Positions 37,781-49,813 of a DNA stretch of 64,000 bases are shown piece by piece. The notes under the pieces are model-generated. The model had not been told where the DNA came from and did no database searches. It worked only from the letters and a program-made list of their open reading frames with translations. The stretch is taken from contig JAFEAT010000010.1 of the NCBI GenBank assembly GCA_018266255.1, positions 248,001 through 312,000 on the forward strand. The letters are read 5' to 3'. Positions within the stretch are counted from its first letter, which is position 1. Each line of letters begins with the position of its first letter. The position numbers were made by a program, and so were the translations under genes. Source of the DNA: Cyanobacteria bacterium SZAS-4 (GTDB lineage: Bacteria > Cyanobacteriota > Vampirovibrionia > Obscuribacterales > Obscuribacteraceae).

Positions 37781-38725
37781 CTACTTATTTGGAACTGAAA
37801 TCACATCCTTCTTAGAACCTGACCATGCCTCAATTTCGTAAGGCACTGGTAGTGGTGCCGCGGCGGACTGATTTGGATTTGGTGTTGGATACGAGATATC
37901 CGAACCGGCGATCGTCGGGTGCGGCATCGGAGGCAACGATGTCATCGCCACGTCTGAGCTGCTCACTGGTGGTTTTGCAAACAGAGAGCTGACATCGACA
38001 GTAGCCACAGGTGCGTGATCCGAGTTGTTCCGCAAAGAAAGATAGATCTTGCTTGCAAGAACAGCCTTAATCAACTTTTGCGCGTCGTCTGGAGCGATGG
38101 CAACTGTGACAGAGCTTGCCGGTGTTGCTTGCGCTGTGCCGGGGTTCTTCTGATACGTTTGCCCAACTGCGATCACTTCAACATCAGACAAAACAGGTTT
38201 TGCTTTGGTATCAGCACCAGAGCCAACCATGCTGATGATGTCGACGTGACTTTCGGGAGCGACAAATCCAGCTACACCGCTGTTGTTGTCCACTGCGAAA
38301 GTAACAGCGCGCATGCCTGGTTGCAAGCGTGCTTCGAATCCCAGTGAGATTCCGAGTGGAAGCAAATCATGCTGTGACACGATCTGCCCCGTTGCGATGC
38401 CGTATTTCGCTATTCGTCCAGATGCCATTGCCGAAGAAATAACTGCGTCTTGCGGCTGCTTAGCCTGGTCGATTTGGCGCTCCTCAAGCGCTTCTGACGG
38501 AATTGTTTGACCTTCTGGAATATCTTTGACGGCGTAGACAACAGTGGACTTGGCTGACATTTGAGCTGTCAATGCATCCGTTTTTGTTCGATAGTTGTCT
38601 TCTTGTTTTTTCAGTGCGTCAGTAACTAAAAATGTGACACCAACTGCAAGACCGATGATAGTCATCAGCATAACTGCCGGTGGCATACGAGAGATGCCTA
38701 TGAACAGTGCGCGTAATGGATTCAT
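37781..38725 (-). CDS. CpaB/RcpC-like SAF-domain protein, copy 2
   Basis: 314 residues: one N-terminal membrane segment (AVMLMTIIGLAVGVTFLV), a SAF domain (~58-125; VVYAVKDIPEGQTIPSEALEE), the RcpC/CpaB domain (MRAVTFAVDNNSGVAGFVAPESHVDI, ~135-230), a Pro-rich linker, and the tail EIEAWSGSKKDVISVP. CpaB/RcpC stabilises the secretin of Flp/Tad pili in the periplasm. GGGGGAAC precedes ATG 38725. It is a clear paralogue of the gene at 38997, separated by that gene's terminator, so it has its own promoter. No other Tad genes are in the window. Confidence 0.85.
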   Translation of the reverse strand: MNPLRALFIGISRMPPAVMLMTIIGLAVGVTFLVTDALKKQEDNYRTKTDALTAQMSAKSTVVYAVKDIPEGQTIPSEALEERQIDQAKQPQDAVISSAMASGRIAKYGIATGQIVSQHDLLPLGISLGFEARLQPGMRAVTFAVDNNSGVAGFVAPESHVDIISMVGSGADTKAKPVLSDVEVIAVGQTYQKNPGTAQATPASSVTVAIAPDDAQKLIKAVLASKIYLSLRNNSDHAPVATVDVSSLFAKPPVSSSDVAMTSLPPMPHPTIAGSDISYPTPNPNQSAAAPLPVPYEIEAWSGSKKDVISVPNK

Positions 38726-38996: not shown

Positions 38997-39953
38997 CTAT
39001 CGTTCTGGAACACTGATCAGATCTTTCTTGCCGCCAGACCAAAATTCAATTTGATGATTCTGTCTTTCTGGTGCAGGAGCTGAAGCCAGTTGTGGTCCTG
39101 GTGCTTCTTCAGGGTCTCCGTTACCGGCGATGGTAGGAAGGCTAGGAGGAGGCACAGGAACACCGCCGAAGTTCATGTTAGACACTGCCGCGGAGTGCTT
39201 GTTGTTGTACAGAGCGGTCACGTCGACTGTGGCTACAGGCTCGTGATCGTTGCTGTTTCTCAGCGACAGGTAGAGTTTGCTTGCCAACACGGCCTTGATC
39301 AACTTAGTTGTATCTTCAGGTGTGACAGCAACGGTGACTGAACTGGCTGGAGATGGTGCGGTGTTGCCGGTAGTGCGCTGATATGTCTGACCAACTGCGA
39401 TTACTTCAACGTCAGAGAGAATTGGTTTTGCTTTGGTGTCAGCACCAGAGCCAACCATTCCGATGATGTCGATGTGGCTCTCAGGGCTGATGAAACCAGC
39501 CACACCGCTGTTGTTGTCTACAGCGAAGGTGACGGCGCGGAAGCCTGTTTTCAAACGAGCATCGAATGAAAGATTTTGACCTTGTGGTTGCAGGTCATGT
39601 TGCGAAACAATCTGTCCGCTTGCGACACCATATTTGGTGACACGTCCAGATGCTAGCGAAGCTGTTGTGAGGGCATCCGCAGGCACCTTCGATTGCTCGA
39701 TCTGGCGCTCTTCGAGAGCTTCTGAAGGAATTGTTTGACCTTCTGGAATGTCTTTTATTGCGTAAACAACGGTTGCTTTGGCTGAATACTTGGCATCCAG
39801 TTCTTTCTGCTTTTCAGCATAAATTTGTTCGCCAGAACTGATTTTGCTCGTCACCATCCATGCCACCACAAAGGCGAGCGTGACGATTGCCGCGATTAAG
39901 ACCGCGGGCGGGATACGAGTAATGCTCATGAACACTGAGCGTAGAGGTTTCAT
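38997..39953 (-). CDS. CpaB/RcpC-like SAF-domain protein, copy 1
   Basis: 318 residues with the same architecture as copy 2: PPAVLIAAIVTLAFVVAWMV membrane segment, SAF domain starting VVYAIKDIPEGQTIPSEALEE, RcpC domain (FRAVTFAVDNNSGVAGFISPESHIDI), Pro-rich linker and tail IEFWSGGKKDLISVP. The two copies are near-identical over the SAF and RcpC cores but differ in the linker, which points to a tandem duplication with drift. AAGG precedes ATG 39953. It is expected to be periplasmic and inner-membrane anchored, acting with a secretin if the family role holds. Confidence 0.85.
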   Translation of the reverse strand: MKPLRSVFMSITRIPPAVLIAAIVTLAFVVAWMVTSKISSGEQIYAEKQKELDAKYSAKATVVYAIKDIPEGQTIPSEALEERQIEQSKVPADALTTASLASGRVTKYGVASGQIVSQHDLQPQGQNLSFDARLKTGFRAVTFAVDNNSGVAGFISPESHIDIIGMVGSGADTKAKPILSDVEVIAVGQTYQRTTGNTAPSPASSVTVAVTPEDTTKLIKAVLASKLYLSLRNSNDHEPVATVDVTALYNNKHSAAVSNMNFGGVPVPPPSLPTIAGNGDPEEAPGPQLASAPAPERQNHQIEFWSGGKKDLISVPER

Positions 39954-43829: not shown

Positions 43830-44252
43830 TCATTTATCAAACCCGGGACTCTTATCAAACCACTTTACTTGTCTGCTCTTGTTACGTTGGTCATTTTGGA
43901 CATTTTTGCCGTCGATATTCGGATCCCAAGTGGCCAGCGAATCTCCCCACCATGATTTCAAATCGTGAACAGTGCCGTCACCAGCTCTTCGTGGCTTTGG
44001 CTCTTGTGGTTGTAAGGCGGTTTCGTCCTTTTTTACTGCTTTAGCAAGGTCATTAACTAACTGAGTGATTTCATCATGTTCTTTAGGTGTGGTCACGGAC
44101 AGTACTTCGTTCTTTCGTTCGTTGGCAAGCCGCGCCAAATCGGCTTCCCAGGGGTTTACAGCAGGAACATGCTCCTGCTTTGGTTTAGCCGTAAACGCGC
44201 CTTTGATAACAGCAACGGAACGGATTAATTTCACGCGAACAAATCTAATCAT
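43830..44252 (-). CDS. Unknown basic protein
   Basis: 140 residues from ATG 44252 (MIRFVRVKLIRSVAVIKGAF), which has TGGAGA eight bases upstream; longer readings to 44315 are not needed. The N-terminus is short, basic and partly hydrophobic. The rest is hydrophilic and Lys/Asp rich, with a motif-like SWWGDSLATWDP near the end. It lies on the same strand as the thymidine kinase gene, which ends upstream at 44342. No family is recognised. Confidence 0.6.
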   Translation of the reverse strand: MIRFVRVKLIRSVAVIKGAFTAKPKQEHVPAVNPWEADLARLANERKNEVLSVTTPKEHDEITQLVNDLAKAVKKDETALQPQEPKPRRAGDGTVHDLKSWWGDSLATWDPNIDGKNVQNDQRNKSRQVKWFDKSPGFDK

Positions 44253-44341
44253 GGGATGTTTCTCCAGAAACATGAGCCTTCCACGACCCATCAAACTGAG
44301 ATATGCCCATGACATCTAGGCGGTAACGGCAGCTCGCTAGA

Positions 44342-45046
44342 TTAGCGCTGATTTATGTTTGCCAGTGGCAAAATCTCGGAACGAACCTCGTCGTCTGGTC
44401 CGAAATCTTCCACCAGTGAGAGTTGTGGCGAAGCTACCCGCTCTTGAGCTTGGGTTGGTTCGGGCTTCAAGGCTTCTGGCAAGCTCAGCTTTAGCTGGAA
44501 CTCGTATGGAGCTTCGAAACAGTGCAGGCAGCGTGCTTCATACTGCGCATCGCCGACTAGAATCTGCTCGCTAGAGTGAACCAGGCGCTGAGTTCGGCAA
44601 GCGAAATCAGAACCGCATTTGCGGCAGACGGCCAGAAGTTTGTCGACTCGATCTGCAAGGGCGAGCAAATGTGGAACTGGACCGAACGGCTTACCTTTGT
44701 AATCTAAATCCAATCCTGACGCGATCAATTTTTTCTTCTGACTGAGAAGCACTTGCACGACGTCAACGATATCGTCTGAGAAGAACTGACATTCGTCGAT
44801 TCCAATTACGACTGCTTGCGAGGAGTACTTCAATATGTCGCGTGGCGTGTCGACTACGATTGCTTGCGAAGCCAGACCATTTCGAGATTCAACTAGATTC
44901 GGTTTCGATCTCGTGTCTGTGGTCGGGCGAACGATGATTGTCGGTAGATAAGCGAGACGGGCGCGTTCTATACGACGAATCAATTCACTGGATTTGCCAG
45001 ACCTCATGCAGCCGACAATCATTTCGAATCGATATCCAGTTAGCAT
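44342..45046 (-). CDS. tdk: Thymidine kinase (type II)
   Basis: 234 residues. It phosphorylates thymidine for salvage in the cytoplasm. It shows the P-loop GCMRSGKSSELIRR, IGIDECQFF, and the lasso/substrate region ASGLDLDYKGKPFGPVPHLLALAD. Four Cys (CRKCGSDFAC.., CLHC) can form the structural zinc site. A ~45-residue Glu/Pro-rich tail extends beyond the usual ~190-residue core. ATG 45046 has GGGGAAACG upstream; a TTG at 45064 would add six residues. Confidence 0.92.
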   Translation of the reverse strand: MLTGYRFEMIVGCMRSGKSSELIRRIERARLAYLPTIIVRPTTDTRSKPNLVESRNGLASQAIVVDTPRDILKYSSQAVVIGIDECQFFSDDIVDVVQVLLSQKKKLIASGLDLDYKGKPFGPVPHLLALADRVDKLLAVCRKCGSDFACRTQRLVHSSEQILVGDAQYEARCLHCFEAPYEFQLKLSLPEALKPEPTQAQERVASPQLSLVEDFGPDDEVRSEILPLANINQR

Positions 45047-45208
45047 AAAAACGTTTCCCCGCAACCGACAAATGGTGATTTTTGCGTTCGCTATATCCGC
45101 TCTTGATCCTGCAAATATAGTCTAAATATCCTCATCTCGAAGAGATTTAGCGATGACCGCGCCTCATATCGTAACCAAAAAGGATGGCGATCAATCGGCG
45201 TTCGAGTT

Positions 45209-46471
45209 TCACATTTCTTTATGTCTGATTCCGCTCTTATCTAGCAGTTCGTTGCATCTAATAGTATTGGCCGTCACACCGGCTAAGCACTTTTGATTGA
45301 ATGGATGAATTGCATTGCGCAAAAGATCGAGCGACTGCAGCAAGTTGTGAATGATCAATGGTGTCATCGAATTTGATTCTAATTGACCAGACTGTGCTGC
45401 TAATGTGATTGTGTAGTCGTTGCCGAGAACCTGATAGCAAGCCATCAACAGGCACTCAGGCAAATGCGGTGGTGCTTTGTCTGGCCAGTGACCTGGATGA
45501 AGTGCCGTTTGCTGCACCTGAACGACCGGCAATGATATTTCACCAAATCCGCCACCAGGTCCAGACGCCAACAACTTCAAATCATTGCAGATTTTGATCA
45601 GGTCAACAGCCAGTCCACGCAGTGCTGATGAGAAGTCCAGAAAGTCAGACATACTTTGACTGACACGGAATAAATCTTCAGCTTGCCTGAAGCGCAGATT
45701 TGTCATTTGCGAAAGCCGCTCGATCATCTTCTTGCTGAGATTGGGATCTGCACCATATCCGGTGCCAGTTTCGGCGCTGCCCAAATTCAACTCAAGCAGA
45801 TTTTGACTGGATTCTTTGATGCGTCGCACAGACCGTTCAACTGACGAACCGTAGGCGTTGAATTCTTGCCCCAATGTCACAGGCGAGCAATCTTGCAAAT
45901 GTGTTCTTCCAACTTTGACGACGCGATCGAACTCTAATGACTTTCTTCTGAGCAAACGTTCCAGGTCTACAAGCGTTGGTTCGAGCAGTTTGAGGCTCTG
46001 CAGCAGAGCGATTCTCATTGCTGTTGGATAGACGTCGTTGTTACAGTGTCCAAAATTTACGTGTGTATTTGGATTCAAGAATTCGTAAGTGCCAATGCTT
46101 CCACCGACAATTTCAGCTCCGCGATTGGCCAGCACTTCATTGACGTTTGCATTGAGACCCTCGCCGGCGCCCCAGTGAAACGCGTCTGCGACGAACTGTT
46201 CTTTCCACTGCCCGCTGGCGATTTCGTCGCATGATTGCACGATGGCTCTGCTTGCAGCCGTCTCCAAACTTTGCAGTTCACCATTGGTGATGGCAGCCGC
46301 TTTCTTGACGAGAACCAGCGCTTCAATCAGTTTCTTATGCGTACTCAAACCGCTGACGGCAAAGTGTTCTCGGGTGCGCGCAGTCTGAGCGCCCCAATAT
46401 GCTCCCACTGGAACCTGAATGTCTCCTAAGCTGTCACGTTCAATTCTCAGATCCAGCTTTTTGTTGACCAT
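45209..46471 (-). CDS. Aspartase/fumarase-superfamily protein with altered active site
   Basis: 420 residues with the full superfamily fold: GDIQVPVGAYWGAQTARTRE at the start, GAGEGLNANVNEVLANRGAE, VGRTHLQDCSPVTLGQEF, and an aspartase-like end (SGQLESNSMTPLI, KCLAGVTANTIRCNELL). Catalytic parts differ. The mobile SS loop GSSxMPxKxN is missing: after GFGEISLPVVQ comes VQQTALHPGHWPDKAPPHLPE, about five residues longer. GAGT is GAGE (E104), and the SQSxND segment reads GHCNND (141-146). The frame is open throughout, so it is not a simple pseudogene. It may be an enzyme with a new substrate or a non-catalytic relative. Confidence 0.8.
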   Translation of the reverse strand: MVNKKLDLRIERDSLGDIQVPVGAYWGAQTARTREHFAVSGLSTHKKLIEALVLVKKAAAITNGELQSLETAASRAIVQSCDEIASGQWKEQFVADAFHWGAGEGLNANVNEVLANRGAEIVGGSIGTYEFLNPNTHVNFGHCNNDVYPTAMRIALLQSLKLLEPTLVDLERLLRRKSLEFDRVVKVGRTHLQDCSPVTLGQEFNAYGSSVERSVRRIKESSQNLLELNLGSAETGTGYGADPNLSKKMIERLSQMTNLRFRQAEDLFRVSQSMSDFLDFSSALRGLAVDLIKICNDLKLLASGPGGGFGEISLPVVQVQQTALHPGHWPDKAPPHLPECLLMACYQVLGNDYTITLAAQSGQLESNSMTPLIIHNLLQSLDLLRNAIHPFNQKCLAGVTANTIRCNELLDKSGIRHKEM

Positions 46472-46632: not shown

Positions 46633-47334
46633 CTATCGTTTCAGCTCTGTCTGGAGCGCGAGGGCTTTCTGCATGAGCATGGAAGTTTGTAATGTTCGTT
46701 GATTAGAGCTGATGAAAGTTTCTATCTGTTTAAGCGCTTCGCTTCTCGCTCCCTGCGCGTAAAGTGTGAGAGCGCGCAAATATGTAAGCTCAGGAACAGA
46801 AATCGAGTGAGCGGCGCAGAAGTCGAGCTCTTGTGTCGCTGACTGCCAATCGCTCGTCTCAACGTAAGCGCGGGCTAAGCAAACATGAGCTACGGTCAGG
46901 CTTGGGTCAATGACCAACGCGCGCTTGTAGTCGAAGATTGCCTCTTTGAAATAGTTCAATTTGCATAATGTATTGCCTAAGTCGATGCGCAACTCGGCAG
47001 AATCCATGCTGTGCATTTTTGCCGAATCCAGACAATCGGAGTAGGCTTTGACGGCTCCGTTTAAATCTCCGGTGCGTTCTAAGCAGTAGCCAATCCAAAA
47101 GTATGGGCGCGAATCGACTGGCGACATTCGCTGTGCCGCGCGAAAAGTGACAAGTGCATTGGCAAGATCGTTGTTGGCTACCATTTGCCTGCCACGCACG
47201 ACGGCGTTGTAGCAATCTTCATCAGCGGTTGCATTGGCGCTTTGATAAGTGCTTTGCCCGACTAATAGATTGAATACAACGACAAGGATAATCTGGAATG
47301 AATTACCGATTTTCCGAGTTGTCTGTTGTTGCAT
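46633..47334 (-). CDS. Exported TPR protein
   Basis: 233 residues with an N-terminal signal/anchor (SFQIILVVVFNLLVG) and four or five TPR units (ALVTFRAAQRMSPVDSRPY, AIFDYKRALVIDPSLTVAH). ATG 47334 lies inside the end of the nucleotidase gene, so the two genes overlap by 32 bases and are probably co-transcribed with translational coupling. A TTG at 47361 is less likely. It is a periplasmic or membrane-attached scaffold; a link to the nucleotidase is suggested only by the overlap. Confidence 0.7.
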   Translation of the reverse strand: MQQQTTRKIGNSFQIILVVVFNLLVGQSTYQSANATADEDCYNAVVRGRQMVANNDLANALVTFRAAQRMSPVDSRPYFWIGYCLERTGDLNGAVKAYSDCLDSAKMHSMDSAELRIDLGNTLCKLNYFKEAIFDYKRALVIDPSLTVAHVCLARAYVETSDWQSATQELDFCAAHSISVPELTYLRALTLYAQGARSEALKQIETFISSNQRTLQTSMLMQKALALQTELKR

Positions 47335-49813
47335 TTTGCGCAGCCAGAGTTGAGAAACCAACTATAGATGGTTGGGGACGAAGCGTAACATCCTTATAAA
47401 CAGGTGTGACGTTGTTAACGCGACCTTCAACTTTTGAGTCAACCAGAGGGTTGAGCGTGCGTCCCTGAATGTGCTCACCGAGCAGGTCAACCTGTGACAC
47501 TGGAATCGGCTTAGCATTCAACTTAGCATAAATCTGATCTTCGGAAATGCCTTCGCCGAACAAGCCTGCTTTATTCCATTTGTCGACTGGGTGGAAGCGC
47601 GTTACCACTGTATATTGACCGGCATCGGTCATCGGTTGGAAGCTACCGTCTGGCATTCTCACGCTCACATCTGTAACGCGATTCCACGGTTTCTTAGTCA
47701 AATCGAATGAATATTTCATGCCACTTACCTGGACAAAATTTCCCGGTTCGTCGAAACGTGAACTTGATTGCTTGCCGAACATTTGAGTCATGCGTTGTGC
47801 GACGGATGGATTTTCTGCCATCGGATATTCTCTAATTCCATATTCGAGCGAATCTTTGATGTTCTTGCCGCTCATGGTGACCATCACAAGCTCTTTCTGC
47901 TCGCCTTCAACGTGTCCAGCATTCATGAATACGTTCGCAATCTCTTGTCGAGTGAGCGGCTGCCCGCCAGGGATCGATGAACGAATGCCACCTGAGTGAA
48001 CCATGGCAATTTGTGGTGCTTCTGCGCCCATGCGTTTTTGCAGACCAGAAAGTGTAGCGTCTGCGATTAAATTGCCGATCGCTGTTTCGCGATTTCTAGA
48101 ATTGGCTAGAGAATATGGCTGCGATGCGCTTGCATCATATGCGGTGGCTTTGAGCGCACCGATTTCAGCGGTCTGTGAATCGATGAACTGCTTGAGATTA
48201 GGATCTGGTGCAACATCGCGAACGCCGTGCAACTTTCCAGTCGTCAGCCAGCGGTTGGCTGAACCGTCAGGATTGAAGACGATGTGATTTTCCGAAAGAT
48301 AATTTCCGCTCGATCCAGCTTGCGTGATCGGAATTTCTCTTGGTGCTTTCCAGAATTGCAGTTTATCGGTTAGCGATTGTTTTTCACTGACCCAGATTGG
48401 GCTGGCAACCACGTCGTGTGTATGACCGCCAGAAATCTTGGCCACAACTAAACCGTTGTCGAGCAATTCTTGCGCCAATCGCTTATCTTCATCGAGCCCA
48501 AGGTGCGTGAGCAGTTTGATGTTCTTGATTCCTTGCGCGTTCAATTCTCGCACCGTTTTAATGGCGGTCTGGGCAGCATCTTCGTAGCGAATCTTGCCGA
48601 CTGCGCCTTCCTCTGTGATCAATCCTACTGTTGCAACTTTCTCTAATCCGTTTGGCCCCGGGATTTCGTGCACCACATATGGTTTCGTTAGTTTGGCGTA
48701 TTGTGGATATGCGGAAAGATCTAAATTTGCATTGAGCAGTGAAATCTGTGGGTTGTCGCGCAAGATTGGCTCCATCACAGCTGGATAACGCTCTGGTATG
48801 AAGCGTCCACCTGGAGCATCATATTCGTGATTGCCTGGAATGATGTTTTTCAATCCCATTCTTGCGAGCGCTTGATTCTCGACTTCGCCGCCATTCGTAT
48901 ATGCGAAGTTGACGTGTCCAGAAAGCGCATCGCCAGCTACGTTGAATTCAGACGGAACACCTTTGGCTGCTGAAATAGCAGTGCGTTCATCAAGCTTTGT
49001 TTTTAATTGCGGTAGTCGATCTAAGTTGCTGTGGAAATCATTGATGACAAATTCGTTCATCTTCAACGACCCAGCGTCACCTTTGATGCTTGCGACAGTT
49101 CTGCCCACGATTTCTGGTGAGCGACGAATAGCTGTAAAGCCTCCACCGAGAACGCCTCCCGCTAGTGTTCCAAATGCTGTGTCGATAGCAACGCCCTTCA
49201 AGGCGGTTTCGATTCCACTGACTGGATTGGTTGTTATTTGATTCCAGTTGTCGTGAGTTTGGTGAAAGGCGCTCCAGGTGGCACTACCGGCGGCACCACC
49301 TGCTAATCCGCGAAATACGTTATGTTGAATTCCTTTCCATGCCGAACCCTCCACCAACTGCTTTCCTGCTAGTTCAGCGGTTTCAAGCGTCGTTCTGGCG
49401 CCTAGCTCGTTTTTGCCTGCGTTTCGCAAAAATGCAGTGGATGCTCGTTGGTCAGCAAGACTGGCCGCGATTCCAGACAATCCATCAACAGCTCCCCAGG
49501 CGAAGTCTGCGTTCGAAAGTGTATGGTCTTTACCGTCCAGTAACGCTTCTTGTATTCCGCCTTTGACACCATATTTGGTGATACCGCCAGCTAGCATGGC
49601 GACCGGAATGCTCAGGGCTTTTCCGTATGGTCCTGATGCTGAAAGGAGTCCGAAAGCTATGGCGCCGCTGGTTCCTGCTGCGATGCTGCTTACGACTTCT
49701 GAAGCCCCTTGCCTGAAATGAACGCTGCCGAGTTCGTCTCTCCACTTATCGCTCGAGTCGTTACCCTTGAGCAGTGGTGATTGTATTTCTTGAACGGCGA
49801 GTTGATCGACCAA
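47303..49813 (-). CDS. 5'-nucleotidase/metallophosphoesterase (UshA-like) with novel N-terminal domain
   Basis: 836 residues. From residue ~252 it is a UshA-type enzyme: NDFHSNLDR (258-266, usually NDxHG), GDALSG (294-299), GNHEYD (327-332), THLGLDEDKR and GGHTHD supply the di-metal site. The C-terminal 5'-nucleotidase domain has SRNRETAIGNLIADA and HSGGIRSSIPGG. Residues 1-250 are glycine/alanine rich with amphipathic stretches (SGAIAFGLLSASGPYGKAL) and belong to no family I recognise. There is no signal peptide, although UshA relatives are usually exported. The start is TTG 49813 with GGAG seven bases before it. Confidence 0.82.
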   Translation of the reverse strand: MVDQLAVQEIQSPLLKGNDSSDKWRDELGSVHFRQGASEVVSSIAAGTSGAIAFGLLSASGPYGKALSIPVAMLAGGITKYGVKGGIQEALLDGKDHTLSNADFAWGAVDGLSGIAASLADQRASTAFLRNAGKNELGARTTLETAELAGKQLVEGSAWKGIQHNVFRGLAGGAAGSATWSAFHQTHDNWNQITTNPVSGIETALKGVAIDTAFGTLAGGVLGGGFTAIRRSPEIVGRTVASIKGDAGSLKMNEFVINDFHSNLDRLPQLKTKLDERTAISAAKGVPSEFNVAGDALSGHVNFAYTNGGEVENQALARMGLKNIIPGNHEYDAPGGRFIPERYPAVMEPILRDNPQISLLNANLDLSAYPQYAKLTKPYVVHEIPGPNGLEKVATVGLITEEGAVGKIRYEDAAQTAIKTVRELNAQGIKNIKLLTHLGLDEDKRLAQELLDNGLVVAKISGGHTHDVVASPIWVSEKQSLTDKLQFWKAPREIPITQAGSSGNYLSENHIVFNPDGSANRWLTTGKLHGVRDVAPDPNLKQFIDSQTAEIGALKATAYDASASQPYSLANSRNRETAIGNLIADATLSGLQKRMGAEAPQIAMVHSGGIRSSIPGGQPLTRQEIANVFMNAGHVEGEQKELVMVTMSGKNIKDSLEYGIREYPMAENPSVAQRMTQMFGKQSSSRFDEPGNFVQVSGMKYSFDLTKKPWNRVTDVSVRMPDGSFQPMTDAGQYTVVTRFHPVDKWNKAGLFGEGISEDQIYAKLNAKPIPVSQVDLLGEHIQGRTLNPLVDSKVEGRVNNVTPVYKDVTLRPQPSIVGFSTLAAQNATTDNSENR

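Follow-up and report, generated by a model that had tools for sequence, protein, structure and literature searches.

What has become of an aspartase-like gene whose product lacks the loop that characterises its superfamily? The gene lies in a window of 64,000 nucleotides, which is the whole stretch of DNA analysed, and an earlier note on it proposed an altered active site rather than decay, serving either a new lyase substrate or a non-catalytic role. Our analysis favours, with a probability of roughly 0.6, a lineage-specific pseudoenzyme of the Obscuribacterales/Melainabacteria that probably acts as a binding scaffold or regulatory subunit. Non-catalysis is well supported by the sequence comparisons described below, and a partner-binding role is what we infer from the pattern of conservation.

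Gene product and predicted fold

45209–46471, minus strand: pseudo-aspartase gene, an open reading frame translated as protein P0001 (420 aa)

Stops occur throughout the plus strand of this interval, and the coding strand is the minus strand (46471 to 45209). P0001 matches Pfam Lyase_1 (PF00206) at 2.6e-67 over the entire profile. An AlphaFold monomer model (pLDDT 85.9, pTM 0.86) resembles aspartase/fumarase structures in Foldseek with TM of about 0.90 and E of about 1e-31, aspartases being the nearest solved relatives. By descent and by this predicted fold, P0001 is a member of the aspartase/fumarase superfamily. Its scores nevertheless fall below the curated NCBIfam cut-offs for PRK12273, aspartate ammonia-lyase (458 against 510), aspA (401.6 against 681.2) and fumC_II, class II fumarase (382.7 against 664.75). 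The C-terminal domain of most closer orthologues, which are 450–488 aa long, is largely absent from the genus of P0001, and no remnant of it was seen 3' of the P0001 stop in three frames of 45065–45208.

AspB of Bacillus sp. YM55-1 (PDB 1j3u/3r6v; PRK12273, TIGR00839) is homologous over its full length (phmmer 7e-100; TM about 0.89–0.90 with the predicted model), and P0001 shares its helix order and keeps its GRTHLQD and ND. Unlike AspB, however, P0001 has no equivalents of S318/S319, N326 and T101, carries an inserted loop and is missing most of the C-terminal domain. Class II fumarase FumC has the fold in common and is represented in the same genome by L002 (43–44% identity with P0001), but L002 has GSSIMPGKVNP and all active-site residues, which P0001 does not.

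Loss of active-site residues

The SS loop GSSxxPxKxN is a hallmark of the superfamily and catalytically essential (PMC13411527); in AspB the catalytic residue is Ser318, and T187, K324 and N326 form the carboxylate pocket (PMC11744663). Active-site residues are numbered here after AspB (PMC11744663), by alignment with P0001, in which four segments are of particular relevance.

45458–45526, minus strand: replaced SS loop VVQVQQTALHPGHWPDKAPPHLP, residues 316–338, about five residues longer than the canonical loop, lacking Ser in the column of AspB S318 and Asn in that of N326
46160–46162, minus strand: E104 in place of the GAGT Thr (AspB T101), which is Thr in 17/17 canonical homologues and in 3/17 core pseudo-aspartases
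46034–46051, minus strand: GHCNND in place of SQSxND, residues 141–146, confined to the genus
45890–45910, minus strand: GRTHLQD, residues 188–194, kept in P0001 and lost in many orthologues

The protein is therefore as the earlier note had described it, with the SS loop lost, E104 and GHCNND at the two other sites, and the flanks GEISLP (310–315) and LPE (337–339) preserved around a new loop that contains QQTALHPGHWPDK at 320–332. In the alignment T101 becomes E104, S140 becomes C143, T141 becomes N144, S318 becomes Q321, S319 becomes T322 and N326 becomes P334. N142, T187 and H188 are kept as N145, T190 and H191, and R189 and K186 of P0001 are also kept; K332 can be aligned to K324, although neither the K324 nor the T187 match holds family-wide. 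P0001 lacks the combination of catalytic Ser318 with a full T187/K324/N326 pocket.

All 17 canonical homologues, drawn from the same 60 relatives as the pseudo-aspartases, have the GSS-loop residues and the Thr and His, with only the usual S/T exchange at T141. The GSSxxPxKxN loop is missing from 28/28 members of the pseudo-aspartase family. Among 17 core members, Ser is found at the S318 column in 2, Asn at N326 in at most 1, Lys at K324 in 3 and His at H188 in 9. GAGT, SQSxND and GRTHLQD are all relaxed across the lineage, and the GRTHLQD segment is deleted in most of the divergent orthologues. Some chemistry of P0001 itself is still conceivable, since T190, H191 and N145 are retained.

Variability of the replaced loop

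The altered loop and GHCNND might together constitute a new catalytic site that accepts a different substrate, making P0001 a new lyase. Such a proposal agrees with the intact (predicted) fold, with the retention of H191, T190, N145, R189 and K186, and with the loop of the core group, which keeps a loose pattern S-x-L-x-P...P...P-x-L-x-E (P326, P330 and P335 in 13/17). A new active site should, however, be conserved, and this loop is not, being the most variable part of P0001 among the congeners, with differences at 10/23 positions compared with 47/397 in the rest of the protein (p=0.0003). Elsewhere it reads otherwise, for example IVERSLIRPNTLPNR or LLSPSPLLPDGLPEE in other genera, and orthologues at 44–59% identity to P0001 have a different or a shortened loop each time; it is absent, shortened or deleted in L045, L046, L049, L057 and L059–L066. 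There is no polar residue set common to these loops, and the His of GRTHLQD is absent from about half of the core orthologues. HPGHWPDK and GHCNND, whose conservation the earlier note had proposed to check, turned out to be confined to the genus, with HPGH reading RPGH in both congeners. The loop is thus unlikely to be a new active site, and a new lyase substrate appears a doubtful explanation.

Independent assemblies and purifying selection

The loop is also lacking in two congeners, whose proteins are 92% and 90% identical to P0001. As these come from independent assemblies, an assembly error can be set aside, and their agreement likewise rules out a sequencing error; the earlier note had allowed for close homologues carrying the normal SS loop, and neither congener does so. 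A compensating frameshift within the loop was considered and rejected, as the other two frames are without GSSxMPxKxN and the congeners agree. Within the genus, dN/dS of the gene is 0.031 and 0.023, compared with 0.029 for the neighbouring thymidine kinase (one computable comparison), although these values are rough because synonymous changes are near saturation. These ratios indicate strong purifying selection on the gene.

A decaying pseudogene or a sequencing or assembly error could account for the lost catalytic residues, for the missing C-terminal domain of the 450–488 aa orthologues and for the loss of the gene from four genomes. However, the frame is intact in the orthologues, dN/dS of 0.02–0.03 rules out decay, the congener assemblies agree and a long invariant motif is present (described below), and we regard this explanation as scarcely credible. 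The distinction from decay drawn in the earlier note is thereby upheld by the intact frame, the dN/dS and the family-wide retention of the gene; the altered active site that it envisaged is not, the loop lacking the conservation of a new site. P0001 combines a kept fold (as predicted), lost catalytic residues and purifying selection, as is characteristic of a pseudoenzyme.

Shift of conservation to a helix

45929–45973, minus strand: new invariant helix stripe LVDLERLLRRKSLEF, residues 167–181, with E171, R172, R175, R176 and L179 in 28/28 members; the most conserved 15-residue window of the pseudo-aspartase family

Conservation of this helix (LLDLERLLRRKSLEF; stripe ERLLRRKSL) is 0.87 in the pseudo-aspartase family against 0.55 in canonical enzymes. 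In the 17 canonical enzymes these 15 residues come 380th among 406 such windows, close to the least conserved, and the columns of E171, R172, R175, R176 and L179 vary and are mostly polar. GRTHLQD moves in the opposite direction, from 0.99 in canonical enzymes to 0.48 in the pseudo-aspartase family, and of 87 positions conserved at ≥95% in the canonical set only 11 are still conserved at ≥90%. Since the positions of the stripe are variable and polar in true enzymes, it is probably solvent-exposed on the helix bundle. The non-catalytic role suggested in the earlier note gains support from this new conservation and from the relaxed active-site motifs. The catalytic loop has disappeared from the lineage, all three active-site regions have loosened, and the gene has stayed at one Obscuribacterales locus. 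Selection would have moved from the active site to the stripe at 167–181, through which a scaffold, possibly oligomeric, or a regulatory subunit may contact a partner.

One might look for that partner in the cell's own canonical fumarase, which P0001 would tune as a regulatory or hetero-oligomeric subunit, given that the fumarase-like paralogue L002 is encoded in the same genome and that active sites of this fold are composed from three subunits (PMC11744663, PMC13411527). The most degenerate orthologues are, however, only about 20% identical to true enzymes, and the stripe falls where fumarases vary and is for this reason no obvious mixed-tetramer contact. Such a subunit is unlikely, if slightly less so than a new lyase.

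Delta-1 crystallin is an inactive argininosuccinate lyase of bird lenses. Its link to the ASL/fumarase superfamily (PMC2779060) offers a precedent for a structural or storage/moonlighting use of a stable fold, without a specific partner, and it resembles the pseudo-aspartase as a catalytically inactive protein retained in the same superfamily. Delta-1 crystallin is, however, close to its active paralogue, whereas the pseudo-aspartases have lost the loop throughout their lineage and acquired an invariant motif. A purely structural use would leave the invariant charged ER..RR stripe unexplained amid extreme divergence, and we consider it improbable.

Locus and phylogenetic distribution

44342–45064, minus strand: thymidine kinase, next downstream after a 144 bp gap (Pfam TK 4.1e-42), a neighbour in most genomes
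46633–47361, minus strand: TPR-repeat protein, next upstream (Pfam TPR_2 3e-15), syntenic
47303–49813, minus strand: 5'-nucleotidase/metallophosphatase-like protein of the conserved neighbourhood (Pfam 5_nucleotid_C 4.7e-24, Metallophos 9.5e-07), syntenic

Positional orthologues of P0001, full-length or divergent, were identified in 28 genomes from its family, in most cases next to thymidine kinase. In the tree a single branch, supported at 99/99 and recovered in 100% of bootstraps, separates all 28 from the other sequences, which points to a single origin. A scan of 84,980 species (one genome each) yielded 31 loci, most of them in genomes labelled Melainabacteria, Obscuribacterales or Cyanobacteria, with a few named just 'bacterium' and one labelled Proteobacteria that is probably a mislabelled bin. 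The recurrent gene order, with local losses, is 5'-nucleotidase-like, TPR protein, pseudo-aspartase, thymidine kinase, WWG/TWDP protein, a second small protein, acetyl-CoA acetyltransferase and alanine dehydrogenase. The same locus is occupied by less eroded and by highly degenerate pseudo-aspartases; an aspartase fold is predicted for a highly degenerate member as well, although this is not fully independent evidence because closer family members are in its alignment.

A second family of the order includes two genomes in which the position flanked by TPR protein and thymidine kinase is occupied by proteins without a Pfam match (L116:1476–2531 and L117:8695–9813). They score 36–40 bits against the pseudo-aspartase profile in a search of these two sequences, and they retain LLGLERLIRRK and LLSLERLIRKK, that is LERLIR(R/K)K. 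Their descent is visible by synteny and missed by sequence profiles.

Four genomes (L112, L113, L114, L115) have the thymidine kinase locus without the pseudo-aspartase, a repeated loss, with TPR protein and thymidine kinase adjacent in L112, L113 and L115; lost in at least four genomes, the gene is dispensable. The gap to thymidine kinase is usually 80–280 bp and reaches 1.4 kb. A function deduced from a shared operon was rejected. Thymidine kinase is present in G008, G016, G020 and G028, which have no pseudo-aspartase, and in G004 and G026 the pseudo-aspartase has no kinase next to it. The synteny was accordingly taken to reflect vertical descent and not a functional link.

Elsewhere in the window, two adjacent and similar reading frames (37781–38725 and 38997–39953, minus strand) resemble, by eye, CpaB/RcpC-type pilus assembly proteins and represent a tandem duplication.

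A candidate partner

43830–44315, minus strand: small protein with the motif WWGxSxATWDP, two genes downstream, candidate partner

No Pfam match was found for the product of 43830–44315. Its C-terminal motif is WWG(Q/D/E)SxATWDP, and it is present in 25/39 genomes of the order searched. It occurs in 23/28 genomes with the pseudo-aspartase against 0/4 shown to be without it (Fisher p=0.0035), a comparison that ignores shared ancestry and depends on four genomes without the gene, of which two belong to a single genus. Five genomes carry the pseudo-aspartase without the small protein, and in a few of the 23 (G010, G018, G023) the small protein is on another contig or far off, with a weak match. 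As a lead only, the WWG/TWDP protein may be a partner of the pseudo-aspartase.

The pseudo-aspartases without the WWG protein are L057, L066, L054, L044 and L039, and several of these sit on long branches (1.55 for the L057/L066 stem, 1.33 for L054), which might reflect relaxed constraint after loss of the partner. The branch of L064 is also long, yet there the WWG protein is present.

A second aspartase-like class

The same genome family contains a second aspartase-like class (L051–L053, L055, L056, L058), in which the SS loop is also altered, to GSSFFxxKxNP, and GRTH is replaced by ARTC. Unlike the pseudo-aspartases, this class keeps the GSS, K and N, and it forms a separate clade (100/100). 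An example is L055:4986–6179, with the motifs GSSFFxxKxNP, ARTCLQDA and LHGGGxIAFN. Genes of this class are flanked by an aldehyde dehydrogenase on one side and on the other by a HalD-like 2OG-Fe(II) oxygenase/halogenase, whose Pfam HalD match in L055 is 9e-14; the cluster is possibly an unstudied amino-acid modification pathway.

Implications

To our knowledge, pseudoenzymes are usually viewed as one dead copy alongside a live one. The literature searched yielded no bacterial, order-wide pseudoenzyme in which constraint had been exchanged in this way, which does not prove that none has been described. We would give even odds to a broader reading, in which non-photosynthetic Cyanobacteriota possess an order-wide family of dead aspartases whose ER..RR face is the binding site of a partner specific to the lineage, possibly the WWG/TWDP protein, and whose fold has turned into a regulator or adaptor through graded intermediates that extend from near-aspartase to unrecognisable.

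For annotation, the automatic label 'aspartate ammonia-lyase' would be wrong for the lineage of P0001. A single locus offers a graded series of orthologues about 45–59% identical to P0001, loop-deleted orthologues and proteins unrecognised by Pfam, with the same new helix motif throughout, which provides a short motif for testing. At the pseudo-aspartase locus one may thus follow, step by step, how an enzyme fold turns into something different.
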